DNA from: Deltaproteobacteria bacterium RIFOXYA12_FULL_61_11
Lineage (GTDB): Bacteria; Bdellovibrionota_F; JAHFAK01; YA12-FULL-61-11
Assembly (NCBI GenBank): GCA_001799195.1
Contig: MGSU01000310.1
Coordinates: forward strand, 1 to 27,483
DNA length: 27,483 nucleotides
Direction of reading: 5' to 3'
Under the pieces are notes generated by a model. That model searched no databases and was not told where the DNA came from. It was given only the letters and a program-made list of their open reading frames with translations. Below, in pieces: positions 103-20,900 of the stretch. Position 1 is the stretch's first letter, and each line of letters opens with the position of its first letter. A program made the translations under genes and the position numbers.

Positions 103-594
103 TCAGCGCTGTTCGTCGTCGAGCTCGCGCATGCGGCGCAGGATCCCGAGAGGGCTGGAACTCAGCGCGATCCTCCCCAGCTCATCCAAACGGGCCTGAT
201 CTTCCTTGAACTTCCGCTCGAGCCGCACCTGGTAGGCCTTGCCGAGGACCTCGATCAGCTTGTCCATCTCGTAGGGTTTGGGCAAATAGCAGAAGGCGCC
301 GAGCTTGGTGCAATCCACCGCGGATTCGAGCGATCCGTGACCGGTGAGGATAATCACCTCCAAGAAACGATGTTCCTGCTTGAGGTGCTCCAGCACCTGC
401 TTCCCGTTCAGGCCAGGCATCTTCAGGTCCAAGAGGGCGAGGTCGAAGCGCTCCTCGTGGGCCAGCTCGAGCGCACGTACCCCGTCATGCGCGGTCAGGA
501 CCTCGAACCCGCGCAGCTCGAGGCGCTTGGCGATGGACTCGAGGAACTTTACCTCGTCGTCGACGATGAGCAGCTTGATCTTCTTGTCGGTCAT
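103..594 (-). CDS. single-domain response regulator with helical C-terminal extension
   Basis: A 163-residue CheY-like receiver protein. Acidic pocket residues D12/D13, phospho-acceptor D56 (in LLDLKMP), T84 and K106 (in LPKPYE) are all present, so it should be phosphorylatable. After the receiver fold (about 5-122) there is a charged helical tail of about 40 residues with no DNA-binding or enzymatic output domain. It probably passes on or buffers phosphoryl groups, or binds a partner protein. The start is well supported by GGAGG six bases before the ATG. It is the last gene of the minus-strand operon, 25 bases after the receiver-transporter gene, whose receiver it resembles (for example DxKMP, LTxHGSL, KPxxxxxLI). 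The kinase just upstream in the operon is its likely phosphodonor, but that is inferred from position only. Confidence 0.9.
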   Translation of the reverse strand: MTDKKIKLLIVDDEVKFLESIAKRLELRGFEVLTAHDGVRALELAHEERFDLALLDLKMPGLNGKQVLEHLKQEHRFLEVIILTGHGSLESAVDCTKLGAFCYLPKPYEMDKLIEVLGKAYQVRLERKFKEDQARLDELGRIALSSSPLGILRRMRELDDEQR

Positions 595-619: not shown

Positions 620-2650
620 TCATGAGGGAAAGCCCAGCCAACTCCAGTAGCCCAGGATGACCCAGCCCCAGAGCAGGGTGAAGGAAATGAGCAACGCGGC
701 AAAGCCGTGGATGAGGAAATCCTTGATGGTCACCAGTTGCTCTCCCGTGATCGGGTCCTTGGCCATGGCATAGGCGATGGCGTTGTTCGGGGTCCCGACC
801 AGGAACATGTGAGCGAAGGAGGAGGCGAAGGCCGTGGCCAACCCGACCATCCAGGGATGGGTGTCGGCGATGATGGCCATGGGTACGGTAATGGGCCCGA
901 GCATGGACACGGTCGCGCCGTCGCTCATGAAATTGGTGCTGATCCCCGTAAAGAGGCTCGCCGCAATGGCGAGCCCAGGGCCGCTCTTCATCGCTTCGGG
1001 CAGGATCGCCACGAACTGGTCTGCCAGGTAGAGCGCTCCGCCGGTCTCGGCCAGGCCCTTGCCCAGGGCACAGGCGCTGGCGTACAGAGCCACCACCTCC
1101 CAGTGGATCGAGGCAATGTCGCGCCAGGTCAGGATGCGGAAGAGGTTAAGGAGGACCACGGCGACGATGGCCGGGCCGCCCATACCGTTGTCGTCCGAAA
1201 TGGCGATCCACATCGAGACCAGTAACACCAGGATCACGGCCGTGATCACCTCGTCCCGGGTCATCGGACCGATGCGACGCGAGGCCTCGCGGACGTAATC
1301 GGCAGCATTCACCTTCAACCCGCGCAGCCGCCGCCAGAACACCAGGTAGAAGTAGGCCCCGATGCTGAGCGCCGCGACCGGCACGAAGGGCAGACCGTAC
1401 TTCACCCACTGCCCGAAGGATGGCGCGGTGCAATAGTCGGCCAGAATACCCTGCATGATAGCGTTGCGGCCACCAGCCGCGGGAGAGCCCGGTCCCCCGA
1501 GGTTCGCGGTGAAGGTCAGGGCCAGGACCAGCATCACCGCAAGATTGCGGTTCCCTCCCGTACCGCGGGTCCCAGCGACATAGACCAAGATGAGGATCGG
1601 CATCAGGAAGGCCACGATGGCGTGCTCGGAGAGGAAGGAACAGGCCATGCCGACCATGGGGAGGAAGAGGAACATCACCCGCGGCAGCGAGGTCGAGGTC
1701 CCGAGCAGGAGGATGCCGATGCGGCGGTCCAGTCCGGTCTTCGAGATCGCCTTGGTCAGCGCCAGGACGCAGAAGATGAAGATGACCGCGTCCTTGGCAT
1801 ACGCCGCGGCGATGGTGTCGGGCTTGAAGATCTCGAACAGGTACATCAAGCCGCCGACCACGAGCGCGGTCACGCCGACCGGCATGGCTCCCGTGGCCCA
1901 GAACAGGGCGCACAGGACCAGGATGCCGAGCATGATCATCCCCCGTCTGGCGACCTGCTCCGGCGAGAGCGGTTGCTTCTTCTGCCCCTCTCCCAGAGTG
2001 ATGCCGAGCTCGTACTTCGCACTGTAGTAAGATGCGATGGTCTCGCCGACCTTCATCTTCTTGTACGCCGCGTACCCCATGATCGGGTCGCCGGTCTCCC
2101 CTTGTTTCACGCTCCCGCTGAGTTCGAGCATACGCTCGGGTATGGCCCCATAGGCGAGCAGCACGAAGGCCACAACCCCGAGACCGATCACCAAGGGGCG
2201 GGAATTTTCCACGCCCTTGAGCTTGGACCACCACGATCCTCGCGGTTGGAGCGGGACCTCGAGGCGGTGGTGCAGACGAGGTTTGTCCTGGCGCGCCATC
2301 TCGAGCGTCGCGATCAACTGCTCGAAATCACAAGGTTTCTGCAGGTAGGCGTAGGCTTCCAGCTTTCCCGAGGTCATGGCGGAACTCAAACTGCCGTGCG
2401 CGGTGAGCATGATCACCTGCAGCTCGGGCCGGTATTGCTTGAGTTCCTTCAGGACCTGCTCGCCGTCGGCATCGGGCATCTTGCGATCGAGGACGACCAC
2501 GTCGATGTCCGAGTCGGTGCGCGCGGTCTTCAGCGCCTCCGCCCCCCTCTCGAGTTCGACGACCGTATAGCCGCGACGCCGCAGGCGATCGGCCAGGGCC
2601 AAGCGAAAGGTGTTCTCGTCGTCGACGAGGAGGATCTTGTTGGATTTCAT
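620..2650 (-). CDS. receiver domain fused to a DASS/SLC13-family transporter
   Basis: A 676-residue membrane protein. Residues 1-120 are a complete receiver domain (D10/D11, D55, T83, K105). A linker of about 30 residues leads to a polytopic DASS/SLC13 permease (about 150-676) with many hydrophobic segments. Family landmarks are the GG-G-P loop near 384-396 and a TPNNA motif at 620-624, close to the usual TPPNA. DASS proteins normally import dicarboxylates, citrate or sulfate with Na+. Both signature SNT tripeptides are altered here, to SEH (341-343) and SDG (576-578), so substrate and coupling ion cannot be assumed. The ATG at 2650 overlaps the stop of the CBS gene by four bases (ATGA), supporting translational coupling. 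The frame stays open further upstream, but that stretch lies within the CBS gene and reads as non-protein. Phosphorylation of the receiver probably gates or recruits the transporter. That is inference. Confidence 0.88.
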   Translation of the reverse strand: MKSNKILLVDDENTFRLALADRLRRRGYTVVELERGAEALKTARTDSDIDVVVLDRKMPDADGEQVLKELKQYRPELQVIMLTAHGSLSSAMTSGKLEAYAYLQKPCDFEQLIATLEMARQDKPRLHHRLEVPLQPRGSWWSKLKGVENSRPLVIGLGVVAFVLLAYGAIPERMLELSGSVKQGETGDPIMGYAAYKKMKVGETIASYYSAKYELGITLGEGQKKQPLSPEQVARRGMIMLGILVLCALFWATGAMPVGVTALVVGGLMYLFEIFKPDTIAAAYAKDAVIFIFCVLALTKAISKTGLDRRIGILLLGTSTSLPRVMFLFLPMVGMACSFLSEHAIVAFLMPILILVYVAGTRGTGGNRNLAVMLVLALTFTANLGGPGSPAAGGRNAIMQGILADYCTAPSFGQWVKYGLPFVPVAALSIGAYFYLVFWRRLRGLKVNAADYVREASRRIGPMTRDEVITAVILVLLVSMWIAISDDNGMGGPAIVAVVLLNLFRILTWRDIASIHWEVVALYASACALGKGLAETGGALYLADQFVAILPEAMKSGPGLAIAASLFTGISTNFMSDGATVSMLGPITVPMAIIADTHPWMVGLATAFASSFAHMFLVGTPNNAIAYAMAKDPITGEQLVTIKDFLIHGFAALLISFTLLWGWVILGYWSWLGFPS

Positions 2651-3222
2651 GGCCGCCGCTCCTCCTCGAGCTTCGCACTCTTGGTATGCCGCACCTGCGC
2701 GGTCAGCTCGGTGAAGAGCTCTGCCAGGCGGAACAAACCGACCACGGTGGAACCGTCTTTCACGAGCAACGAGAGAGTCTGGCTCATGATCAGGCGGTGG
2801 AGTCCATGGGCGATCGAGGCATTGTGCTCGAGATAGTCCTCGATCGGGTGCATCACCGAGGAAACCTTGATGCTCGCCGCCCGCCCCGCGATGTCCTCGA
2901 GCGAGCCGCGCCAGAAGCGGAATTGTTCCAGCATGGAACCGACGAGCTCTTGGCTGACCCCTGCCCGAGCCAGGAGTTCGAGGTCGCCGAAGAGATCGTA
3001 GCGCGGTTCCAGGCCTCTGAGCAGCGCAAGGTAGCCGAGCTTGCCGACCACGAGACCTTGCTGGTCCACGACCAGTACCACCCGCAGGTGGGGTCGCCCT
3101 ATCGGCGAGCTGCGTTGCGCCTCGTCGAGCACCAAGAACACCTCTTCCAACGTGGCGTCGGTGCTGACCTTGGGACACTCGGACAGGGGGATCATCAGGT
3201 CCCCGACCGTGTTCAACTGCAT
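2647..3222 (-). CDS. CBS-domain-pair protein
   Basis: A 191-residue soluble protein with two CBS-like halves. The first is about 1-75 (VGDLMIP, a VVLVVDQQGLVVGKL strand-turn, then LLRGL). The second is about 115-175 (VSSVMHP, then SLLVKDGSTVVGLFRLAELF). A helical insert of about 40 residues separates them. CBS pairs usually bind adenosyl nucleotides and tune transporters, channels or enzymes. There is no attached catalytic domain, so it probably acts in trans on a neighbour. The start is fixed by AAGGAGG six bases before the ATG. It overlaps the upstream kinase gene by 10 bases and the downstream receiver-transporter gene by 4. A role as an energy-state sensor for the transporter or kinase is an inference from this context. 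Confidence 0.82.
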   Translation of the reverse strand: MQLNTVGDLMIPLSECPKVSTDATLEEVFLVLDEAQRSSPIGRPHLRVVLVVDQQGLVVGKLGYLALLRGLEPRYDLFGDLELLARAGVSQELVGSMLEQFRFWRGSLEDIAGRAASIKVSSVMHPIEDYLEHNASIAHGLHRLIMSQTLSLLVKDGSTVVGLFRLAELFTELTAQVRHTKSAKLEEERRP

Positions 3223-4910
3223 GGCGTTCCTCCTTGACGGTCTCCCGGAGAGGATGCCTCCCCTACCGGCAATGTGATGATGAAGGTGGTCCCCTTGCCC
3301 ACGACGCTCTGCACCGCGATGGTTCCCCCAAGATTGCGGACGATGCCGTAGGACACGTGCAGACCGAGGCCGGTGCCCTTGCCGACCTCCTTGGTCGTGA
3401 AGAAGGGCATGAAGATCTTCTCGAGCAGTTCCTTGGGTATGCCTTTCCCCGTGTCGGCCAGAGATAGCGCCACCCTGCCCTCGGGCACGAGCGAGGTAGT
3501 GAGGACGATGGAACCTTGGCCTTCGATCGCGTCGATGGCGTTGTTGAGCATGTTGAGCAACACCTGGCGAAGCTGGTTGGCATCGGTCGTGATCGTGGGT
3601 AGCTCCGGAGCGAATCGCCGCTCGATACTGATGTTCTCCACGCTCAGTTCGCGCAGGAAGAGGGTCTCGAGCAGGTCGTCGATCAGGGCGTGCAGGTCAG
3701 TCGACGCCAACTCGGCGTCGCTGCGGCGGACGAAGCGCAAGAGCTTGTGGGTGATGTCCCGACAGCGGAAGACCTCGGCCTGGATGGAGGCGAGTCGGGT
3801 GTCCAGTTCGGCGGGAACCAGGCCGTCTCCGAAACGCGGATCGAGCATATCCCGGATGAGGCCTGCCTCCTCGGCGATACTGGCCAGGGGGTTGTTGATC
3901 TCGTGGGCGATCCCGGCCGCCAGTTCCCCGATCGAGGCCAATTTCGAGGCTTGCAGGAGCTGTCCGGACAGCTCCGAGGTCGTGGCATCGGTCTCGATGC
4001 GTACGGCCATCACCTGCCGGGCGCGGACGGCGATGATGCCGATGATGACCAGGGTCAAGAGCAGGGCGAACAACAGGACCCGCTGCTCTTGGGGCGTCAA
4101 CCAGGGTTCTCCGGGCGAGCGCCGTTCATCCACCAGCACGGCCCAGGCCGTGGTGTGCAGCCAAGCATAGCCATAGACCTTACCCGAACGATCTTCACCG
4201 GAATCCGCGCGGGGCTCGCGGGGCGGCAGAATCACCGAGGTCTCGAGCGGGTTGCCGAGATCGGGATTGGCGGACTGATAGATCCCATGGCCATTGATCA
4301 AGGCCACCCGCACCACCTTGGCCTCTTCCAGACTCTCGATGTACTCATGGACCTGACTCGGAGCCAAGGTCGCACGGAGCACCGAGAGCTGCTGCCCCCT
4401 GCGCCGGGAGACGGCGAGGGTGAAGTGGGGTTCTTGCCGGAAGCCGAGGTAGATGTCGGTGACCACCTGCCCGACCTTGCCGGCCCGCAACTCCTTGAAC
4501 CACGATTCCTCGCTGTAGTCCTGCCGGGTCAGATCGGGATAGGGTCCGGCATAGGCCACCATCTGCCCCCGCTCATCGAAGACGCCGAGATCGATGTACG
4601 TATCGCTCTGGCGTCGGAGGTTGCTGAGGTGGTCCTGCAAGTCCGTCTCGTCCGGTCGCTCCGGGAACCCGGGATCGTCGATGATGTGGGAGAGGTTCCG
4701 CACCCGTTCGGAGAGGAACAGGTCCAGCGTGGTGGCGAGGTTCTCGGAGAGCGACACGAGATGATTGCGACGGCCTTCGAGGACCAGACCGCGGTACTGG
4801 ACCAAGAAATACCCTTCGGCGACCAACAACGGGGTGAGATAGGTCAGGAGCAAGCGGGCGAGCAAGCGACGTCTCTGGTCGCGATAATTCGGTCCCGGCT
4901 TCGTCGACAT
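3213..4910 (-). CDS. membrane sensor histidine kinase with periplasmic Cache-like domain
   Basis: A 565-residue kinase. TM1 (about 15-36) and TM2 (about 277-296) flank a periplasmic sensor region of about 240 residues that resembles a double-Cache fold (DLGVFDERGQMVAYAGPY and SWFKELRAGKVG are typical). The transmitter has the H-box GIAHEINNPLAS with phospho-acceptor H336, the N-box LLNMLNNAIDAI, DTGKGIP, and FFTTKEVGKGTGLGL. There is no HAMP match or attached receiver. The chosen ATG precedes MSTKPG. The frame extends 76 codons further, but that part overlaps a promoter-like gap and does not read as protein. It is the first gene of a four-gene operon (kinase, CBS, receiver-transporter, receiver). 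Double-Cache domains often sense small carboxylates, which would fit regulation of a DASS transporter. The ligand is not determinable here. Confidence 0.9.
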   Translation of the reverse strand: MSTKPGPNYRDQRRRLLARLLLTYLTPLLVAEGYFLVQYRGLVLEGRRNHLVSLSENLATTLDLFLSERVRNLSHIIDDPGFPERPDETDLQDHLSNLRRQSDTYIDLGVFDERGQMVAYAGPYPDLTRQDYSEESWFKELRAGKVGQVVTDIYLGFRQEPHFTLAVSRRRGQQLSVLRATLAPSQVHEYIESLEEAKVVRVALINGHGIYQSANPDLGNPLETSVILPPREPRADSGEDRSGKVYGYAWLHTTAWAVLVDERRSPGEPWLTPQEQRVLLFALLLTLVIIGIIAVRARQVMAVRIETDATTSELSGQLLQASKLASIGELAAGIAHEINNPLASIAEEAGLIRDMLDPRFGDGLVPAELDTRLASIQAEVFRCRDITHKLLRFVRRSDAELASTDLHALIDDLLETLFLRELSVENISIERRFAPELPTITTDANQLRQVLLNMLNNAIDAIEGQGSIVLTTSLVPEGRVALSLADTGKGIPKELLEKIFMPFFTTKEVGKGTGLGLHVSYGIVRNLGGTIAVQSVVGKGTTFIITLPVGEASSPGDRQGGTPCS

Positions 4911-5168: not shown

Positions 5169-6527
5169 TTATTGGCGAGGGGGGATATTATAGACGGCGA
5201 GTTTTCGTAAAAGGGTCCTGCGATTGATCCCGAGGATCTTGGCGGTCTTGCTCCGGTTGCCCTGGCAGCGATCCAGCAGTTCGAGGATATAACCGCGCTC
5301 GACCTCTTCGAGCGTCCGTAGATCGGTGTGCTGGGCGTTTCCCGACGTGGTGATCCAGGCCGGAAAGTCGTCCCGCTTGATCAGGCCTGTCTTGCGCATG
5401 ATCACGGCATGTTCGACCGCGTTTTCGAGCTGGCGCACGTTTCCCGGCCACGGGAAACTGGCGAGGAGTTCGAGGGCATCCTGACGGAAACCCTCGACCG
5501 AGAAGCCCTTGTTGAACATGCGCAGGAAGTGATAGGCCAGCGGGGTGATGTCTTCGGGCCGTTCGCGGAGGGCCGGGAGGTTGATCGGTATCACCGCGAG
5601 CCGGTAGAACAGGTCCTCGCGGAACTGCCCTGTGCCGATCATTGCGCTGAGATCGCGGTGGGTGGCGGAGACCAGGCGCACGTCCACGCAGTGCTCCTTG
5701 GTATCCCCGACCCGACGGCAACGGCGTTCTTGGAGGAAGCGCAAGAGCTTGGCCTGGGCAGCGGGACCCATTTCGCCGATCTCGTCCAGGAACAAGGTGC
5801 CGTGATCGGCCTGTTCGAGCAAACCCGGTTTGTCCTGCACCGCGCCGGTGAAGGCCCCGCGCTTGTGCCCGAACAACTCGCTCTCGAACAAGGCATCCGG
5901 GATGGTATTGACATCGACCGGGATGAAGGGTCCCTTGGCCCTGGAGCTGCGCAGGTGCAGTTCTCGGGCGATCAATTCCTTGCCGGTGCCGGTCTCGCCG
6001 CCGAGGAGCACCGAGGCATTGCTCTCCGCAACCTCGTGGACGATGGCCAGTACCCGCCTGAAGACCTTGCTGCGGAAGACGATCGGGAAGGCCGGGGCCT
6101 CTCCGCTCTCTCCCTTGTCGCGGAGCTGGCGGTGGGCCCGGACCTGTTCGGCGATCTCGGCCATGACCGCGAGCAACTCCTCGAGGTCGAAGGGTTTGGT
6201 GATGTAGGAATACGCTCCTTCCTTCATGGCCTGAACCGCGGTCTCGATGCTCCCGAAGGCGGTCATGACCACCACGGGTTGACGCAGGTACGAGGCCCTT
6301 GCGCGCCGGAGCACCTCCAGCCCCGAGGCGCCGGGCATCTTCAGGTCGGTGACGACCACGTCGTAATCTCGCCGCTCCAGCGCGGCGAGAGCATCGGTCC
6401 CATTGTTCGCGGTGAGGACCTGATAGCCCTCCTCGGTCAAGACGTTCTCGATGAGTTCAAGCATCTCCTGGTCATCCTCGGCAACCAGGACCGTGATCGG
6501 GTCATGCGGGTTCTCGCTTGGTGCCAT
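5169..6527 (-). CDS. NtrC-family sigma-54-dependent response regulator
   Basis: A 452-residue three-domain regulator. The receiver (about 12-125) has D18/D19, D61, T89 and K111. The AAA+ domain has Walker A GETGTGKE (177-184), an intact GAFTGA loop (224-229) that contacts sigma-54, and Walker B TLFLDEIGEM (244-253). A Fis-type helix-turn-helix lies at the C-terminus (TAKILGINRRTLLRKL). All key residues are present, so it should activate sigma-54 promoters when phosphorylated. The ATG at 6527 lies inside the end of the upstream kinase gene (26-base overlap). A GTG five codons earlier (6542) is an alternative start, preceded by AGGTGG. The kinase immediately upstream is its evident partner. The sigma-54 promoter candidate just downstream (4964-4979) is its most likely target. 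Confidence 0.93.
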   Translation of the reverse strand: MAPSENPHDPITVLVAEDDQEMLELIENVLTEEGYQVLTANNGTDALAALERRDYDVVVTDLKMPGASGLEVLRRARASYLRQPVVVMTAFGSIETAVQAMKEGAYSYITKPFDLEELLAVMAEIAEQVRAHRQLRDKGESGEAPAFPIVFRSKVFRRVLAIVHEVAESNASVLLGGETGTGKELIARELHLRSSRAKGPFIPVDVNTIPDALFESELFGHKRGAFTGAVQDKPGLLEQADHGTLFLDEIGEMGPAAQAKLLRFLQERRCRRVGDTKEHCVDVRLVSATHRDLSAMIGTGQFREDLFYRLAVIPINLPALRERPEDITPLAYHFLRMFNKGFSVEGFRQDALELLASFPWPGNVRQLENAVEHAVIMRKTGLIKRDDFPAWITTSGNAQHTDLRTLEEVERGYILELLDRCQGNRSKTAKILGINRRTLLRKLAVYNIPPRQ

Positions 6528-8268
6528 CCTCCTCCCCCTCACTCGGTTCCACCTCGGCCAAGGTTAAGGCAAAAAGCGTACCCACGCCGACAACGCTGTG
6601 GACCTCGAGATGGCCGTCGAGGTCGCGAACCACTCTGTCCACCAGGGCTAGACCCAATCCCGTACCCCTTCCCGAGCCCTTGGTGGTGAAGAAGGGTTGG
6701 AAGATTTTCGGCAGGTCCTGAGGTGAAATGCCACATCCATGGTCCTCGACCTCGAGGAGGATGGTGCCCAGAGGCCCTCGGCGACAACGCAGATGGAGTT
6801 CTCCCCTCCCGGCCATCGCCTGGCAGGCATTGACACACAGATTGAGCAGAGCCAACTCCAGATCCCGCCGCGGAGCCTGCACCAGAAGGTCGGGGGTGAG
6901 GGCGAGCCGGGTCTCGACCCCGGGGTACAGGTCTGCCATGGCCTCCGCGGCCTCGGTGAGCATCGGGGCGAGTTCGAAGATGCTGGGCAGGGAGGGTTCT
7001 TGCCGGGTCAGATCGAGCAGGTTGCGCATCAAGGTCGCGATGCGTTTGGTCTGTTCGACGATCTTCTGCAGCCGCGAGGTCGTGGACTCGTCCCCGGCGT
7101 GCCGGCGCAACAAGACTTGAGCATTGCCGCGTACCACGTTCAGGGGGGTTCCCAGTTCATGGGCCAGACCAGCGGCAATCTCCCCCATGGTGGCAAAACG
7201 CTCGGCGCGCAGCGAACGTGCCTCCGCGGCCCTCGCACGCTCGATGTGCAGGTTGAGATCGGCCACCAGGCGATTGAACTCGCCGATACGCAGCACCTGG
7301 TAGGAGACCTCGACCGGTTGGAGGGGGTCGCGCTCATGGTTGACGAGCTGAGCGGTGATCTCGAGCATGGGGCGGACCTGCATCCTGAGGAAGCGGTAGA
7401 AGACGGCCACGGCCAAGAGGCAGGCAACCCCGAGCGCGAGGATCAACCAGCCGAGGCGTTGGCGCAGGTCGAGCAGCTTCTCGGCAACGTCATAGCTGAC
7501 GATCACCCCCCAGCCCGTGGAGGGCATGACGTGGACGAAACCCGAGCGTTCCTTGCCCGAGATGGTGCTCACGAAATGCAGGGGCCCGCGCTGCCCCCCC
7601 AGGAAGGCCCGTACGGGCGGATTGCTCGCCAGGACGTGCGCATCGGGGTTGGAGTCCTCGAGACTATAGAAGATCGGCCTCCCGGCTCGATCGAGCACAT
7701 AGACATGTCGGTGGAGCAGGGTACCGACGTTCGCGGTCAGGTGCAGGCGCAGGTACTCCGCATCGAGGCAGGCCAGGCGGGGGCGTGTCGGTGGGCCGCT
7801 GCGCCCCCCGGTGCGCAGCAAGACGCACGGCCGCGGCAACGGGGCGAGTTCGAGGACCGGGGTGACCTCGAAGAGGAACGAGGGAGGACTCTCGACCGCG
7901 CTGAACGGGAGAGCCTCGGGGTAGCGCGCACCGGAACGGGCCTCCCCCAAGGAAGAAGCCGTCACCATGCCCTGCTCGTCCAGGAATTCTGCCAGGGAGA
8001 AGGCCGGGAAGTCCAGGGCTTGCAAAGGGTTCGACGCGCTGCTCAGCACCGTGGCCGCATGGCGCAGGGTTTCGTCGAGGAGTCGCTCGGCCAACAACGC
8101 GACCTGGCGATTCGTCTCTTCCGCTTGCTGTTCGAAGAGCACGCTCTCGCGGCGGTGCAGGTAGACCGTCACCGCCACCAGCGGCACCAAGGGTAGCGCC
8201 AGCATCAGGAGCAACGAGCCCGTCACCATGCGGGTCAAGGTCGTGGTCGGCGCGGGGAGCTCGGTCAT
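6502..8268 (-). CDS. membrane sensor histidine kinase, partner of the NtrC-type regulator
   Basis: A 588-residue kinase. TM1 is about 15-37, a periplasmic sensor region is about 38-270, TM2 is about 272-293, and a HAMP-like linker is about 294-347. The transmitter follows, with the H-box GLAHELGTPLNVV (phospho-acceptor H370), the N-box LALLNLCVNACQAM, DHGCGIS, and FFTTKGSGRGTGLGLAL. The sensor region is Cache-like (YVLDRAGRPIFYS, STGWGVIVSYD). The ATG at 8268 gives a normal signal-anchor N-terminus. Longer in-frame starts exist, but they lie in the intergenic promoter region. Overlap with the regulator gene marks a cognate pair of the NtrB/NtrC or DctB/DctD kind. The pairing with a transporter operon resembles DctB/DctD, but the transporter family differs and the ligand is unknown. 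A -10-like TATACT lies on the minus strand at 8284-8289 without a clear -35. Confidence 0.92.
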   Translation of the reverse strand: MTELPAPTTTLTRMVTGSLLLMLALPLVPLVAVTVYLHRRESVLFEQQAEETNRQVALLAERLLDETLRHAATVLSSASNPLQALDFPAFSLAEFLDEQGMVTASSLGEARSGARYPEALPFSAVESPPSFLFEVTPVLELAPLPRPCVLLRTGGRSGPPTRPRLACLDAEYLRLHLTANVGTLLHRHVYVLDRAGRPIFYSLEDSNPDAHVLASNPPVRAFLGGQRGPLHFVSTISGKERSGFVHVMPSTGWGVIVSYDVAEKLLDLRQRLGWLILALGVACLLAVAVFYRFLRMQVRPMLEITAQLVNHERDPLQPVEVSYQVLRIGEFNRLVADLNLHIERARAAEARSLRAERFATMGEIAAGLAHELGTPLNVVRGNAQVLLRRHAGDESTTSRLQKIVEQTKRIATLMRNLLDLTRQEPSLPSIFELAPMLTEAAEAMADLYPGVETRLALTPDLLVQAPRRDLELALLNLCVNACQAMAGRGELHLRCRRGPLGTILLEVEDHGCGISPQDLPKIFQPFFTTKGSGRGTGLGLALVDRVVRDLDGHLEVHSVVGVGTLFALTLAEVEPSEGEEDGTKREPA

Positions 8269-8422: not shown

Positions 8423-8764
8423 ATGTTCGGTATCGGCAGCTCGGAACTCGTCCTCATCTTGATCCTCGCCCTGATCTTTCTCGGCCCGAAGAAACTCCCC
8501 GGGCTCGCGCGCGGCATTGGCAGGGCCTTGGCGGAATTCCGCCGCGCCGGAGGAGAGATGCGTTCCCAGCTCGGTGGGATCTCCGAGCGGGCCATGGAAG
8601 AGGTGCACCGCCTCTCCGAGGCCGCGACCCGCGAGGTGCACGAATCTCAACCAACCCCGCCACCCCCGCCCACCGGCGAATCCGGCCCGCAGGGCTCCCC
8701 GCCCGACCTCCCCCCGAACACAGAAGCGAAGGAGGAGGTCGTTGCTCCTCCCACCAAGGGCTGA
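8423..8764 (+). CDS. TatA/TatB-family twin-arginine translocase subunit (TatB-like)
   Basis: A 113-residue protein with one N-terminal membrane helix, then an amphipathic helix (about 24-45), a charged helix, and a disordered tail rich in Pro and Glu. The N-terminus MFGIGSSELVLI carries a glutamate at position 8, and the helix ends in FLGPKKLP. Both are TatB-type features, whereas TatA usually has FG and no E8. In the Tat pathway TatB and TatC form the receptor that recognises RR signal peptides on folded proteins. In lineages with one bifunctional TatA/B the same protein can do both jobs. The ATG follows a weak AGGCGG-type ribosome site. tatC starts two bases after the stop. Confidence 0.88.
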   Translation: MFGIGSSELVLILILALIFLGPKKLPGLARGIGRALAEFRRAGGEMRSQLGGISERAMEEVHRLSEAATREVHESQPTPPPPPTGESGPQGSPPDLPPNTEAKEEVVAPPTKG

Positions 8765-8766
8765 GC

Positions 8767-9510
8767 ATGTCCGCGAAAACCCCTCAGACCTTTCTCGACC
8801 ACCTCGAGGAGCTTCGGTGGCGCTTGGTCCGCTCCCTCATTGCTGTAACCGTTGGATTTCTCTGCTGCTTCGGTTTCGCCGAGGAGCTGTTCGAGTTGCT
8901 GATGCGTCCGGTCCTGGCTGTCTTGCCCCCGGCAGGCCAACAGCTCCACTTCACCGGTCTGCTCGAACCCTTCATGGTCCATCTCCACGTCGGGGTGCTC
9001 GGTGGGCTCTTCGTCGCCAGTCCTTACATCTTCCATCAGGTCTGGGGCTTTGTCGCTCCCGGCCTCTATCATCATGAACGCCGCTACGTCGTGCCGTTCG
9101 TCCTCGTCTCGTCGCTCTGCTTCGTCGGCGGGGCCCTGTTCGGTTACCTGGTCGTCTTCCCTGCCGGGTTCAGGTTCTTCCTCTCCTTCACCACCGAGAG
9201 CCTGGTACCCGTGCTGACCATGGGCGAATACCTCTCGCTCTCGACCAAGCTCATCCTCGTTTTCGGCTTGGTCTTCGAAACCCCGGTCATCATCTTCACA
9301 CTGTGCGGGCTCGGCATCGTCACCCCGCGGAAGCTCCTGCAGAGCTGGCGGTACGTGGTCGTCGGCATCAGCATCATCTCCGCGGTCTTGACCCCGGCCG
9401 ACGTGCTGACCATGATCCTCATGGCCATTCCCCTCCTGATACTCTACTTCGGCAGCACCCTCATCACCATGGCCTTGCTGCGACGCCGCGAACCCGGGGA
9501 GGCAGCATGA
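8767..9510 (+). CDS. Sec-independent protein translocase TatC
   Basis: A 247-residue polytopic inner-membrane protein matching TatC end to end. It has the N-terminal FLDHLEELRWRLVRSL signature, which forms part of the signal-peptide binding site, then LLEPFMVHLHV, YIFHQVWGFVAPGLYHHERR, and F-E-TPVII in the fourth helix region. It ends with SAVLTPADVLTMILMAIPLL. The length is normal for TatC. The ATG lies two bases after the tatB-like stop and is the first sensible start, since the same frame open further upstream overlaps tatB. The last four bases (ATGA) overlap the following HEAT-repeat gene, so the three genes are probably co-translated. Confidence 0.96.
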   Translation: MSAKTPQTFLDHLEELRWRLVRSLIAVTVGFLCCFGFAEELFELLMRPVLAVLPPAGQQLHFTGLLEPFMVHLHVGVLGGLFVASPYIFHQVWGFVAPGLYHHERRYVVPFVLVSSLCFVGGALFGYLVVFPAGFRFFLSFTTESLVPVLTMGEYLSLSTKLILVFGLVFETPVIIFTLCGLGIVTPRKLLQSWRYVVVGISIISAVLTPADVLTMILMAIPLLILYFGSTLITMALLRRREPGEAA

Positions 9511-11973: not shown

Positions 11974-14900
11974 ATGAAGACGACCAGCAACCTCATCATC
12001 CTCCTGTTCCTCGCCGGACTCCTTGCCTGCGAGGACGACAAGAAGTTCGTGGCCCAGGATCCCGGTTCCTCGGTCCTGGACGTGAGCACCGATCTCGTTC
12101 CGGATACCCCCTACCAGCCCGCGCCCGACTCCGGGGGCACGGTGGTCGAAAAACCGGCGGTACAGCCCGGGCAGGAGCAACCGGAACCTCCGGAGCCGAC
12201 CGAGCCGGGGAAACCGCCCAAGCAACAGACCGATCCCATCGTCGTCGACGTCATCGACGAGGCCGCAATCCGCGAGGGGCTACGGGCTATCGCCGAGGAC
12301 TGTCTCACGCGGATCAAAGTTGGAGTTCCCTACGAGTGCGATCTGACCACGGTCTCGGGGGACGAGGACATCACCTTCGCCATCGCCAACCCGCCCGAGG
12401 GGCTGACCATCGACCCGGTCACCGGGCAACTTCATTGGACCCCGACCGAGGATCAGCTCGGCCGACACGTACTGGACGTGGTCACCATGCAAGGCCAGCA
12501 CAACACCGTCACTCAGCTCACCCTCGTGGTCTTCGAGAACACGCCCCCGACCTTCACCGGCCTGGACTGCGAGACCGAGGTAGCCATCGGTCTGCCGTGG
12601 GAATGTCAGGTCACGGCCGACGACCCGGATGGTGACGCCTTGACCTTTACCCTCGAGGTTGCGCCCGACGGTATGACCATCGACGAGCACGGCCTCATCT
12701 CCTGGACCGCGGAACCCGACGACTCCGGTTGGAACAACTTCGTCGTCCAGGTCGAGGACGGCACCGCCCAGGATTCGTTCCAACAGCTCGTGCATGCCTA
12801 CGATCCGAACAATCCACCGATCTTCGAGTTCGTCGATTGCGCCCTGACCGCGGAAGAAGACACCTGGTACGAGTGCGGCTTCGTCCTCATCGATGACTCC
12901 ATCCCCGACGAAATGTCCTTGTGGCTCGAGGACTTCCCCGAGGGCATGCTCTTCGACCGCGAGGCCCAGACCGTGAGTTTGTTGGTGCAGAACGTCGAAG
13001 CCGCCACCAAGATCGAATACACCGTGGTCATGGACGTGCTGGGCGTAGAGCATCGCGAGCGCAACTTCTTCCTCGCCTTGCCCATGAACGATCCTCCCTC
13101 CCTCCGTTTCCTCGATTGCGGCGCCGAGGTCTTCGAGGACGAGCTGTACGTCTGCCGTTTCGAAACCGTCGATCCCGACGGCGGCGAAGTGTTCCTCAGC
13201 CTGGACGCCTTCCCGGCCGGGATGACTCTGGATGAGGCCGCGGGCCTTGTGAGTTGGCGGCCCGGCAACACACTCCAAGCGACCGAGGAACCCTACGAGT
13301 TGACGGTCAGCGACGGCCGCCTCGCCCAGCGCTATCCCAAGGCCGTGACCGTGCTACCGGTCAACGACCTTCCCGGGGTGCGGTTCGAGGACTGCGCCCA
13401 GAGCGCGGAAGAAGATTCCTTATACTCCTGTACCTTCCTGACCCTGGACCTCGATAACGACGAGGTGGTCACCACCCTGCTCGACGGCCCGGCAGGGATG
13501 GTTCTCGAGGACGGGACCCTGACCTGGCTTGTCCCCAACGTGCTGGAGGAAGAAACCCAGACCTTCACCCTGCTCCTCGACGATGGCCAGGACCAGGTGG
13601 AAGTATCACGCAGCCTCACCCTGCTACCCGTGAACGATTCTCCGACCCTGAGCTTCCGAGATTGCGCCGTCACGGCGGCCGAAGACACGGTGTACTCCTG
13701 TTCCTTCTTCCCCTTCGACCTCGACGGCGACGTGGTCACGGCCAGCCTCGAGGACGGGCCGCTCGGCATGAGCCTCGACCTCCTCAGCCACAGGCTCACC
13801 TGGACCGTGCCGAACGCCGCCACGCCCTATGACGTTGTCTATGCGATCCGACTCGATGACGGCCAGGAACAGCCGCGTTTCGAGCAGACCTTCGAGGTCT
13901 TGCCGGTCAACGATGCCCCGAGTTTCCGTTTTGTCTCTTGCGCCGACCGGGTGTTCGAGGACGAGACCCTTCGCTGCACTTACGAAACCGCTGATCCCGA
14001 TGGCGACGTGGTCACGGTGACTCTGCTCGAAGGCCCGGCCGGGATGCTCGTGGACGAGGCTCAGCACCAGATCCTCTGGACCGTGCCCAATGTTTTGGCC
14101 GAGACCGAGGTTTCCTTCCGGGTGCGGGTGAGCGACGGCACGGTCGAGCAACTCTACGCGCGCACCGTGCTCACCCTGCCGGTCAACGACGCACCGACCC
14201 TCGTCTTCGAGAATTGCCCCGCGACGATCTCTGAGGACCAGCTCTACACCTGCGGCGTACAGGTGGCCGACATCGACGGCGACTCCCTGACCTGGTTCGT
14301 GGTTGGCGGCCCCGCCGGGATGCTCGCCGAACCGTTGTCGGAACGGGTGAGCTGGAACGTACCCAACACCCTCATCGCCACGACGGTCACCTTCGAGGTC
14401 GTGGTCCAAGACGGCAATGCCGAGACCCGCGGCACGAGGTCGGTACAGGCCCTGCCCGCGAACGATCCCCCGGCCCTTACCCTCTTGGCCTGCCCCGCGG
14501 AGGTCGATGAGGACGAGACCTTCGTCTGTTATTACCAGCTCGGCGATATCGACGGGGATCCGCTGCTCGTGTACCTCGAGGCAGCTCCTCCGGGTATGAC
14601 CGTAGACCAAGCGCAGCGCAAGGTCAGCTATCTCGTGCCGAACACCCTGGAGAGAACCCCCATCTCCTTCACCCTGACGGCCGATGACGGTCAAACCGAA
14701 ACCCAGGCCGGGGCTTCTTTCGATGCACTGCCCCGGAACGACGCGCCTCTTCTCACCTTCCAGAATTGCGCGACGACGGTCCTCGAGAACGCCGTCTACT
14801 CGTGCTCGTACTCGGTCGCGGACCTCGACGGTGATTCCGTGACCGTGGAACTCTCCGGCCAAGCCGAGGGCATGACTCTCGACACCCTCAACCGCACCAT

Positions 14901-17900
14901 CACCTGGATCGCGCCCGAGATGCCGGCCGAACCGTCTCGCGTAGACGTGTCCTACAGGGTGTTGTTCGGCGACGGCACGCTCACCCTGAGCCTGGAACGG
15001 CCGCTCAGCGCGCTCGCCGTCAACGACGCTCCCACGATCACCCTCGAAAACTGCCCGGCGGTGATCGAAGAAGACCAGCAGTACACCTGCTCGGTCTTCC
15101 TGGCCGACCCCGACGGGGATGTGCTGGCCTGGTCCCTCTCCGGCGCCCCCACCGGCATGCTTCCCGACCTCGTCAACGGGCGGGTGGTCTGGACCGTGCC
15201 CAATACGCTCGCGGAGACCACGGTACACTACGACATCGTGGTCCAGGACGGCGCGGTGGAGACCAGGCGAGCGGTCTCGTTCCAGGTCCTGCCCGTGAAC
15301 GACCCCCCGAGCCTGACCCTGCTCTCGTGCCCGACCAGGGTGAACGAGGACGCCTCGTTCGTCTGTTATTACCAGACCGGGGACCTCGACGGCGACAGAG
15401 TGACCGTGACCCTCGCCGACGGACCCGCGGGAATGATCCTGGACCAGACGGCCCGCAGGGTCACCTACCTCGTGCCCAACACCGTAACCGAGACCCAGGT
15501 CTCCTTCACCCTCGAGGCCGACGACGGACACGTCACCGTCACGGCAGAGGGTTCTTTCGAGGCCGTCCCGCAGAACGACGCTCCGACCCTGACCTTCACC
15601 TCCTGTCCGACCTCGGTCCTCGAGGATGAGACCTATACCTGCACCTACACGCTCGCGGACCTCGACGGCGACGAGGTGACGGTCACCCTCGCGGGTCAAC
15701 CGCTCGGCATGATCCTCGATCAGGGAAGCCGGACCATCTCCTGGACCGTACCCAATATCGCAGCACCATTTGAGGACTTCGACTACCAGCTCGAGCTGAG
15801 CGACGGAGAGGGTGGTACCGCGACCTACCAACGGCCCCTGCGCGGCCTACCGCAGAACGACGCGCCGACGATCGACTTCCTCGCCTGCCCGACCGCGGCC
15901 GACGAAGACGAGCTCTATCTGTGCACCTTCCAACTCTCGGACCTCGACAATGACGGCGTGACCGTGACTCTCGTCGGCGCTCCGACGTGGTTGAGGGTCG
16001 TCGGGACTAGCCTGACCGGCGTCGTGCCCAACACCCTTGTCGAGACCACTCTCGAGTTCACCGTGCGGATCGGCGACGGCCAGGCCGTGGTCGAAGTGCC
16101 GCGCAGCCTGACCCTCACCCCCCTCAACGACGCTCCGACCCTGAGCCTGCTCGATTGCCCCCCGACCGTGGACGAGGACGAGGTCTACACCTGTCGCTAC
16201 CAGGTCGGGGATATCGACAACGACCCCGTGACCGTGACCCTGCAGGACCTCGCCGGGATCGGTCTGGTCCTGGATACGGTCAACCGCACGATCACCTATC
16301 CGGCACCGAACACCCTGGAACCGATCACCCGCTCCTTTACCCTGACCGCCGACGATGGCGAGACCGGGACCGAGCTCGGCGGATCGTTCCAGGTCCTGCC
16401 GCAGAATGATGCTCCGACCATTTCCTTCCAGAACTGCGCCACCACGGTGCTGGAGAACGAGAGTTACCTCTGTGCATACACGGTGAGCGATCTCGATGGG
16501 GATATCCCTACCGTGGCACTCGTAGACCCACCGGCTTGGATCACCCTCGACCCGAACACCCCGCGCATTTTCGGCACCGTTCCCGAGCTGGACCCCACCC
16601 CGATCGAACAGCCCCAGGACTATCAGGTCCAGGTGAGCGACGGAACCACCACCGTGACCGTGGCCCGTCCGCTCGTGGCCATCGCGGTCAACGACGCACC
16701 CATGATCAGCTTCGGCGACTGCGTCACCTCGCTCGAAGAGGACCAAGTCTACACCTGCTCCTATACCCTCAGCGACAGCGACACCCCGCCCGGCGACGTC
16801 AGCGTGGACCTGACCGCCGCCCCCGCGGGCATGACCCTCGACCGCGTCCAGCGCACGGTCACCTGGTCCGTACCCAACATCCTGACCCCGCACGCCGAGA
16901 GCTTCACCCTCCGGGCCTATGACGGCGAGACGACCACCAACGCCTCCCAGAGCGTGCTCGTCGTGCCGGTCAACGACCCGCCGGTGATCACCCTCCAGGA
17001 CTGCCCGAGCTCCGTGAACGAGGATGCCCCCTACACCTGCACCTACACCGTGAGCGACCTCGACGGCGATGCGCTGACGGTAACTCTCCTCGGCGGACCT
17101 GCCGGGCTCGTGCATGATGCAGAGAACCTCCGCGCCACCTGGACCGTGCCCAACACCCTCGCGCCGACCGCGTATACCTACCAGCTCGAGGCCAGCGACG
17201 GTGCTGCCCAGACCCGGGCCGGGACCAGCTTCACGGCCTTGCCGCAGAACGACGCGCCGACGATCGACTTCCTCGTCTGTCCGACCTCGGCCAACGAGGA
17301 CGAAACCTATTCCTGCACCTATCAACTCACTGACCTCGATGGCGACGGCGTGGCCGTGACGCTGCTCGGCGCGCCGGCCTGGCTGCAAGTCGACGGGGGA
17401 GGCAACCGTCTCGTCGGCACCGTGCCCAACACCCTCTCCGAAACCACCCTCGAGTTCACCGTGCGCCTCAGCGACGGCACCGCGGCGGTGGACACCCAGG
17501 CCACCCTGACCCTCCTGCCACGAAACGACGCTCCGGCGCTGAGCTTCGTCGACTGCCCCACCTCTGCCCGCGAGGACGAACTTTACGTCTGCACCTACCT
17601 CGCGAGCGACCTCGACGGTGACCCGCTGGCCCTGGAGCTCCTCGGCGCTCCGGTCTGGCTCGCCCTCGACGAAGCCAATGCCCGCCTCTACGGCACGGTG
17701 CCCAACACCGTGGAACCCGAGACTCTGACCTTCACCCTCGTGGCGAGCGACGGCCAGGCCCAGACCTCGAGGCCCCGCTCCGTGACCCTCGCCCCGCAGA
17801 ATGACGCCCCGACCATCACCGTGGGTCCCTGCGACGCGACCGTGAACGAGGACGACACCTATACCTGTTCCTACACCGTGGCCGACCTCGACGGGGACGA

Positions 17901-20900
17901 CCTCACCGTCACCATCCTCAGCGGACCTCCCGAGCTGATCCACGACCCGGTCAATCACAGCGTGAGCTTCCTCGCGCCCAACACCCTCGTGCCGACCGAG
18001 TACCGTTACCAGCTCGAGGTCGAGGACGGAACGACCTCGGCCAGGGCCGAGGCAGGCTTCACGGCCATGCCGCAGAACGACGCGCCGACGCTCGAGTTCC
18101 TCGTCTGCCCCGCTTCGGCCGACGAGGACGAGGCCTATACCTGTACCTTCCAGCTCGGCGACCTCGACGGCGACCTCGTCTCCGCGAGCCTCCTCGGCGC
18201 TCCGGCCTGGCTGCGGATCGACGCCGGCACCAACCGGCTCTTCGGCACCGTGCCCAATACCCTGACCGAGACCACCCTTGAGTTCACCGTGAGGATCGGT
18301 GACGGTCAGGTCGACGTGGACACCCCGCACAGCCTGACCCTCTTCCCTGGGAACGACGCCCCGACCCTGAGCCTCGGCGATTGTCCGGCCTCGGTCCGAG
18401 AGGACGAGTCATACCTCTGCACCTACACGGTCGGCGATCCGGACGGTGATGCGTTGACCGTCTCCTTCCTCGGCGCTCCCACCTGGCTGACCCTCGACCG
18501 AGAGAACGGGCGGGTCACCGGCACCGTGCCCAATACCCTGACCCAGACCACCGTGACCTTCACCCTCACCGTCGACGACGGCCAACTCCAGGCAGACGTC
18601 CTGCAGTCGCTCGTGCTCCTGCCCCAGAACGACCCGCCGACGATCACCCTCGGCCCTTGCCAGAACGAGGTTTGGGAAGACGCGCTCTACGAGTGCTCCT
18701 ACACGGTGACCGACCTCGACGGCGACAGCCTCACCGTGGCCCTGATCGGAGGACCCACCGGCATGGACCTGGATCAGGTCAACCGCCGGGTGACCTTCCT
18801 GGTACCCAACACCCTCGAGCCGACCGACTACAGTTACCAGCTCGAGGTCGGCGACGGTACCGCCCTGGTGCGCGCCGCGGCGACCTTCACGGCCCTCCCG
18901 CAGAACGATCCGCCGAGCATCGACTTCCTCTCCTGCCCGACCTCGGCGAACGAGGACGAGGCCTTGAGCTGCACGTATCAACTCGCCGACCTCGACGGCG
19001 ACGCCATGACCGTGACCCTCGTCGGTGCCCCAACCTGGCTACGGGTCGACCAGGGCGGCAGCCGTCTCTTCGGCACCGTGCCCGAAGTCCCGGAAGAAAC
19101 GACTCTCTTCTTTACGGTGAGCCTCGACGACGGGCAATTCACCGTGGATAACCAACGCACTCTTACCCTCCACCCGGTGAACGACGCCCCGGTCCTCAGC
19201 TTCTCGGGGTGCCCGGATGCGGTCTACGAGGATGCGGTCTATACGTGCACCTACGCAGTCAGCGACCCGGACGGCACGATCCCGACCGTTTCCCTCGTCG
19301 GTGCCCCGGCCTGGCTCGGTGTGGATGCCGTGAACTCGCGCCTCACAGGCTCGGTGCCCAACACCGTGATCCAACAGACTCTCACCTACCAGGTCACGGC
19401 CTCGGACGGCCAATTCCAGACCACGCGCAGTCAATCGGTGCTGCTGCTGCCGGTCAACGACCCACCGACCATCGTCCTCGTCGCTTGCCCAACCGTGGTT
19501 GCCGAGGACGCGACCTACACCTGTACCTACCAGACCGCCGACCTCGACGGCGACCCGGTCGAGGTCAGCCTGTTCTCGGCCCCGGACTGGATGAGTCTCG
19601 ACCTGGCCAATCACCGGGTCAACGGGGTAGCGCCCAACGTCCTCGCCGAAACCTCCTTCGGCTTCACCCTGGCGGCGAGGGATGCCGCCACCGAGGTCCG
19701 GACCAGCGGTTCGGTACGGGTGACCCCGATGAATGACCCGCCGACCCTGACCTTCACCTCCTGCGCCGAGACCATCGCCGAGAAGAGCCTCATCAACGGG
19801 CTCTGGGTCTACGGAGTCTTCCGCTGCGACTTCACGGTCAGCGACCAGGACGGCACCATCCCGACCGTGAGTGTGACCGGCGGTCCGACCGGCCTGGTCC
19901 TCACCAACGGCAACCGCCGCGTGGAGTACACGATTCCGGAGATAACCTCGGACACCGTCATGACCTTCACCCTCACGGTAAGCGACGCCGAGTTCAACGT
20001 GCCCTACCCGCGGAGCGTCACCGCCGTGAACGTCAACCTGCCGCCGGTCCTCGCTTCGATCGGCAACCAGACGGTCCCCGCGCTGGGCTCCCTTGTGCTG
20101 CAGCTCCTGGCCTCAGACCCCGACCAAGGTCAGCTCCTGACCTTCCAGGTGAGCGGTCTGCCCGCGTTCGCCGCTTTCGATGGTGCCCGCACCATCACCT
20201 TCTCCCCGGGACTCGATGACCTCGGTCCCTACCCCATCACGGTCACGGTGAGCGACGGCAGCGCCTCGGACAGCGAGACCTTCGGCCTGACCGTCGAGGC
20301 GGCCGGGCCACAGGACGCCACCGACACGGTCGACCTGCAGGGCAACACCAACCTGAAGGTGGATATCCTGTTCGTGATGGACACCTCCGGATCCATGGAC
20401 TGGGTGGCGGCCGGGGTTTCGGACTTCCTCCAGGACTTCCTCGGGGAGATCACCAAACCGCCCATGGACCAACACCTGGACTTCCAGATCGCCCTGATGC
20501 TGGCGCACAGCAACACGCCCTGGTCCGGCCGGCTCTACAACTACGGCACGGCACCGAAGATCCTCAAGAAAAGCAATTACCTCAATCCCGACGGTTCGGT
20601 AAACCTGACCGCCCTCCAGGCCGCCTTCGCGATGAACTTCGAGCATTACGTCGGCGGACAACCCGACGGTGGTGAGGCTGGGCTGTACTCCTACCACAAG
20701 GCCCTGACCGACTGGTTGGCCGCAAACTCGACGGGCAACTTCAGCGGGATACCCGACCTCCACGATTTCTTCCGGCCCGACGCTACGTTGAACGTGATCT
20801 GGCTCGGAGACGAGAACGATGTCTGCTACCGCTACGGCATCGATCCGTCGATCACGTACACCAACGCGGACATCAACTGGCTGTGCACCAACCACCGCAC

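Follow-up and report, generated by a model that had tools for sequence, protein, structure and literature searches.

A receiver domain fused to a DASS-family carrier in genomes with sulfate-reduction genes

Receiver and carrier in a single chain

Can a phosphoryl signal act on a transport protein itself? The question is raised by a minus-strand gene at 620..2650 of the window (the whole stretch of DNA analysed here, 27,483 nucleotides), whose 676-residue product carries a receiver at its N-terminus and a DASS-type transporter behind it, as supported by the open reading frame, Pfam and 11 full-length fused homologues. The initial annotation had read in this protein a receiver with D55, T83 and K105 followed by an SLC13-type permease, and had proposed a search for Response_reg and Na_sulph_symp in one chain. 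Both are there and over cut-off: Response_reg spans residues 6-116 (87.5 bits, cut-off 30.2) and Na_sulph_symp residues 230-673 (110.8 bits, cut-off 27). The three receiver residues are as claimed, the permease takes a DASS fold in a structure model, and both families are matched by all ten proteins of the fusion alignment. The Pfam search found no SPX domain in the protein; its N-terminal domain is the receiver.

The fusion gene begins inside the end of the CBS gene, its ATG and the CBS stop codon overlapping over 4 bp (ATGA, 2647-2650), and the fusion frame stays open across that gene, giving a longer ORF that reaches 3178. We favour the 676-residue start because of the ATGA overlap and because most homologues start at nearly the same position.

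The receiver domain itself (residues 4-121; 2288..2641, minus strand) is supported by Pfam, alignment, dN/dS and the model. Its full catalytic set, D10, D11, D55, T83 and K105, is invariant in 10 of 10 aligned fusions, the codons of the last three lying at 2486-2488, 2402-2404 and 2336-2338 on the same strand. Between close pairs the receiver has a dN/dS of 0.05-0.11, with similar values for the transporter part and, judging by these substitutions, the fused receiver is under purifying selection. Mean pairwise identity is 0.61 in the receiver, 0.70-0.74 in the transporter core and 0.53 in the linker that joins them (residues 122-151; 2198..2287, minus strand); despite this lower overall identity, several linker positions do not vary among the fusions, and R129, G146, N149 and R151 are conserved. 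The charges of the linker and of the TM1-TM2 loop gave no clear signal on topology, and we assume that the fused receiver is cytoplasmic because receivers act in the cytoplasm.

A structure model built from 48 homologous rows reached a pLDDT of 92.8 and a pTM of 0.87, superseding a poor first model from 10 sequences (pLDDT 67); its region of lowest confidence is the linker (about residues 131-150). The receiver part shows the (beta-alpha)5 fold, with Z of about 21-23 to many receivers, while the transporter part aligns with NaCT, Drosophila INDY, NaS1, plant DiT, Pho90 and VcINDY at a VIA-align Z of about 33-40 (35.5 for yeast Pho90).

A protein of this kind could in principle come from a frameshift or an assembly error that joined two genes, and a single metagenome-assembled genome, taken alone, could mislead on this point; the initial annotation had itself raised such an error, or a fusion missing from relatives, as a concern. 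The same in-frame join, at about the same length, occurs, however, in eleven other genomes, whose homologues are 55-62% identical to the window protein, and the artefact is therefore rejected, with a negligible probability left to it. The full-length fusion is present in 12 genomes of several phyla, the window's own and 11 others. A scan with one genome per species gave eight full-length relatives, two of them from Electryoneota and two from Zixiibacteriota. Searches of whole genomes further yielded G025, G059 and G060, every genome of one small phylum in the searched collection, and G208 (= G395), which is taken to be one and the same genome as that of locus L012. The fusion is rare, with five cases in a survey of 386 genomes. 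In a tree of receivers, the fused ones group in a clade of their own, apart from that of the operon's second receivers (100/95 support against each other), and on this phylogeny the join is one old fusion event, since retained.

The operon and related modules

The initial annotation had also placed a sensor kinase, a CBS protein and a second receiver in the same operon, and all three lie where it described them. The CBS-type protein (191 aa; 2647..3222, minus strand) stays below the Pfam cut-off (17.2 versus 24 bits), and we assign it through its homologues, since the CBS family is matched by 10 of 10 aligned members (best 1.6e-15). The kinase gene (3213..4910, minus strand) encodes, by Pfam, dCache_1 (PF02743, which we take to be the double-Cache family IPR033479), HisKA with an AHEINNP box, and HATPase domains. 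On the other side of the fusion gene, a stand-alone receiver of 163 aa (103..594, minus strand) belongs to an orthologous clade found beside the fusion; it has no Pfam output domain, only a conserved C-terminal tail of about 45 residues. Neither this second receiver nor the fused one has a DNA-binding domain.

Upstream of the kinase, Pfam identifies an NtrC-type sigma-54 response regulator (5169..6527, minus strand) and a second histidine kinase, its probable partner (6502..8268, minus strand). Since an NtrC-type regulator with its own kinase adjoins the operon, a separate transcriptional layer probably stands beside it. NtrC-type genes likewise precede the kinase in G025, G059 and G041, and a search for sigma-54 promoters gave no excess over shuffled sequence. 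Elsewhere in the window, and judged by eye, TatA/B- and TatC-like genes (8423-9510) run divergently from the signalling operon, and an ORF of 3186 aa (11974-21534) contains many similar cysteine-bearing repeats of about 85-90 residues each and a VWA-like C-terminal part (DTSGS).

A survey of genomic neighbours, proposed initially alongside the domain search, found the order dCache kinase, CBS, receiver/DASS, receiver mostly conserved in relatives: it holds in the window, in L006, L007 and L009-L012, and in the truncated L008. The operon of L009 has two CBS genes, and L005 is cut by its contig. In G025, G059 and G060 the fusion follows a dCache-type kinase or lies amid several DASS genes, kinases and many receivers, and these loci lack a CBS gene at the operon's usual place. 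G208 carries a further copy of the operon (L045 5412-8381) that looks broken, with a receiver and partial transporter, a stop inside the transporter match, and a shortened CBS gene and kinase. G041 (L046 8052-11403) has a dCache-type kinase, a receiver without the usual acidic pair and a second-receiver orthologue, with no DASS gene beside them. In a Desulfococcaceae genome (L013 5971-9480), a second-receiver orthologue precedes two genes that resemble cation/proton antiporters when their translations are read by eye.

Receivers and CBS proteins also accompany unfused DASS genes. In the window's own genome, a tandem double receiver (2189-3061 of contig C322, L002) lies directly upstream of an unfused DASS gene (315-2162) with SDH/ADG motifs, and on contig C27 a CBS protein lies directly upstream of another DASS gene; in G007 a kinase, two receivers, a CBS protein and a DASS carrier are encoded consecutively. 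Receiver and CBS modules can moreover be fused to each other, as Response_reg plus two CBS stretches in Pfam terms: such proteins occur in DASS clusters at L026 (9249-10274, 10849-11784) and L042 (4231-5154, 10023-10934), where the adjoining DASS genes belong to genomes G025 and G060, and at L046 (6984-7892) beside a second-receiver orthologue. The G025 cluster also holds a cytidylate-kinase-like domain with a receiver fused at its C-terminus (L026 7935-9164). The receiver profile also matched within two further DASS genes each of G025 and G060, the second and the third; these matches are most likely an artefact of misaligned N-termini in the profile, and a Pfam re-scan of one of these genes found no receiver.

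Across 30 DASS loci from 38 genomes, those with an AHT motif adjoin a CBS gene in 4 of 4 cases, against 1 of the 26 remaining loci (p = 2e-4). Almost every SNT-type gene of the same set lacks both a CBS gene and a receiver at distances up to about 1.5 kb. The two kinds of neighbourhood indicate that the presence of receivers and CBS proteins follows certain non-SNT branches of the family. From fusions and neighbourhoods together, we infer that receivers, CBS proteins and non-SNT DASS carriers are linked functionally at the protein level.

Coupling, sulfate reduction and cargo

The transporter part of the fusion (residues 152-676; 623..2197, minus strand) has a DASS fold with TM1, a loop of about 59 residues, and transport and scaffold helices. 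Aligned to VcINDY, it lacks the two SNT motifs at the hairpin tips: S341-E342-H343 (1622..1630) stands in place of the first, in HPin, and S576-D577-G578 (917..925) in place of the second, in HPout, while R395 (1466..1468), an arginine in loop L5ab, falls by alignment near the Na1-equivalent region (all on the minus strand). SEH, SDG and R395 are invariant across the aligned fusions. In VcINDY the two SNT motifs take part in substrate binding and line the sites for Na+ (PMC9098524), and in the exchanger LaINDY the place of Na1 is taken by Arg159, in a salt bridge with Glu146, and that of Na2 by His392 (PMC7553777). As far as alignment can tell, the likeness between the pattern seen here and that of LaINDY points to a charge built into the Na1-like site and hence to a different mode of coupling. 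Because SNT has given way to SEH and SDG, Na+ coupling cannot be assumed, and both coupling ion and substrate may differ from those of VcINDY; the substrate is not readable from the binding-site residues. With 169.1 bits the protein also does not reach the curated cut-off of 198.6 bits of the NCBIfam model TIGR00785 (dass) and, by that model, is a divergent relative outside the dass subfamily.

The genome of the window encodes dsrA (574 bits), aprA (854.5 bits) and sat (377 bits), all over cut-off; dsrA by itself is no proof of the pathway, and by gene content alone the host is a probable dissimilatory sulfate reducer. Among the 12 fusion genomes dsrA is over cut-off in nine (the window's own and the eight of the first scan), and each of these eight has a second, weaker match, mostly directly beside dsrA, where it is probably dsrB. 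G025, G059 and G060 show only short 5' pieces of dsrA that stop at contig ends, some of them on the contigs that also carry aprA (C97, C112 and C125, respectively), and we take the gene to be broken there by assembly. aprA is found in 10 of the 12 genomes and sat in 11, with neither over threshold in G208.

Against a base rate of 31 dsrA genomes in the 386 surveyed (8%), the association between fusion and dsrA has a Fisher p of 4e-6 with the three contig-end cases counted as positive and of 0.054 with them counted as negative, both values being weakened by shared ancestry, since related genomes are not independent. All seven fusion genomes outside the survey are dsrA-positive. The dsr, apr and sat genes are not adjacent to the fusion in any locus examined. 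In sulfate reducers, carriers of the DASS family already count as candidates for sulfate import (PMC5840216, PMC11887813) and, taken with the association with dsrA, aprA and sat, this points to sulfate as the most likely cargo of the fusion transporter, an assignment that we hold with fair confidence.

Proposed control, alternatives and known systems

The initial proposal of a dedicated control at the level of the transporter thus holds up indirectly, through the single-clade fusion, the purifying selection, the conserved operon, the receiver-CBS fusions near related DASS genes and the lack of a DNA-binding domain; the link to sulfate reduction, the loss of SNT and the published Desulfobacteraceae clusters of DASS, two-component and CBS genes had escaped it. 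On balance, we lean towards reading the protein as a secondary anion importer that is gated by phosphorylation, serves dissimilatory sulfate reducers and most probably carries sulfate. Mechanistically, the dCache kinase of the operon would sense an extracytoplasmic ligand, with sulfate as the leading candidate, and would phosphorylate D55 of the receiver fused at the cytoplasmic N-terminus. DASS carriers are homodimers with elevator-moving transport domains. Phospho-D55 would probably alter receiver-receiver or receiver-transporter contacts at the cytoplasmic face of this dimer and, in turn, the changed contacts would modify the elevator motion, raising or lowering flux without new protein synthesis. 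The second receiver would probably compete for phosphoryl groups as a sink or join the same complex, while the CBS protein would report on energy or APS inside the cell. The inferred parts of this scheme are phosphotransfer, the gating with its sign, the sulfate cargo and the roles of the CBS protein and the second receiver. One precedent is inhibitory, the N-terminal SPX domain restraining the DASS-family carriers Pho87 and Pho90 (PMC7381174), and a CBS protein has been suggested as energy or APS sensor in a Desulfobacteraceae cluster (PMC11887813).

Other readings of the same protein have to be weighed against this one. The same gating might serve a different cargo, such as a dicarboxylate, a sulfur oxyanion other than sulfate or a counter-exchanged anion, and the carrier might be an exchanger and not a Na+ symporter. 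The replacement of SNT by S-E-H and S-D-G with an invariant R395, which recalls Arg159/Glu146 and His392 of LaINDY (PMC7553777), would fit such a carrier, and dicarboxylates are carried by other DASS members. Nevertheless, the analogy with LaINDY is one of alignment position, and 12 of 12 hosts have dsrA (three as contig-end pieces only), nearly all of them with sat and aprA, so that a different cargo seems unlikely, if still deserving of some weight.

The signal might also run outwards from the transporter, with the DASS part sensing the anion and setting the phosphorylation of the receiver or the kinase, and sensor-type fusions of transporter and kinase do exist in Amt5 (PMC5764959) and CbrA (PMC7096432). 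In the window protein, however, the transporter is joined to a receiver and not to a kinase, receivers being as a rule the output side, and the operon kinase already has its own dCache sensor, which makes a transceptor improbable. We give a similarly low probability to a receiver that merely tethers the kinase cluster or drains its phosphoryl groups while transport goes unaffected. Receivers do crowd these clusters, and phosphate sinks of the DifD type are known (PMC12802240), but a free receiver would suffice as a sink and the operon already has one; moreover, the fusion has been kept across phyla with several invariant linker residues, and receiver-CBS fusions adjoin related DASS genes.

If the importer is indeed gated by its receiver, uptake would be adjusted on the transporter itself, beyond gene expression alone. 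Sulfate reducers are reported to shut high-affinity uptake above about 1 mM sulfate, which saves energy and avoids over-accumulation, and the accessible text of that report names no switch (PMC5840216). With its receiver, the probable importer has in D55 a defined control residue that can be mutated. It is conceivable, though we would put it short of probable, that aspartyl phosphorylation of the transporter directly switches sulfate uptake in several phyla of non-model sulfate reducers, with the receiver as a built-in gate. Two-component signalling would thereby gain a type of output of which we found no description, a secondary carrier within the receiver's own chain, and it becomes worth asking whether the carriers are also the targets of the many free-standing receivers of DASS clusters.

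The closest known systems include the Desulfobacteraceae clusters, which combine DASS carriers, cache-domain kinases (IPR033479), response regulators and CBS proteins, as for the sulfate transporters Dvar_38230 and Dvar_38430 of Desulfosarcina variabilis, clustered with two-component and CBS genes (PMC11887813). The window's operon looks like a fused variant of this cluster. There, however, the response regulators are called WalR type and modelled as acting on promoters, with regulation mainly transcriptional, and the main text describes no fusion (PMC11887813), whereas here the receiver is part of the transporter. If our proposal is correct, the transcription-centred model for those clusters would need a post-translational layer, with stand-alone receivers and CBS proteins also acting on DASS carriers.

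A receiver that acts post-translationally on a membrane protein, with a second receiver as sink, has a counterpart in Myxococcus, where EpsW, a single-domain receiver, targets a membrane enzyme directly once phosphorylated and DifD is a phosphate sink (PMC12802240); EpsW and its target EpsZ are, however, separate proteins, and the target is a phosphoglycosyl transferase and no carrier. Amt5 and CbrA do join a transporter domain and a two-component module in one chain, but their module is a kinase, which makes the transporter the sensor, instead of a receiver. VcINDY and human SLC13 proteins (NaS1, NaDC, NaCT) share fold and Pfam family with the fusion, which differs in its unconserved SNT motifs and in an extra receiver, linker and TM1-TM2 loop of about 59 residues.

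Both the cluster type, from Desulfobacteraceae, and an N-terminal regulatory domain on a DASS carrier, from SPX proteins, are thus known. In the searchable literature we came across neither the receiver-DASS fusion and its spread nor its link to sulfate reduction and its altered SNT motifs, and no report of a receiver-transporter or receiver-SLC13 fusion, a weak absence given that mostly non-subscription papers were covered. SPX is part of inositol-pyrophosphate phosphate signalling. The yeast SPX-DASS carriers Pho87, Pho90 and Pho91 have in common with the fusion a regulatory domain on a DASS carrier, N-terminal in Pho87 and Pho90, and removal of SPX raises uptake (PMC7381174). The proposed input here is instead a phosphoryl group from a histidine kinase, and cargo and organisms differ; by this analogy, the fusion protein may work like an SPX-DASS carrier, without being a member of that group.
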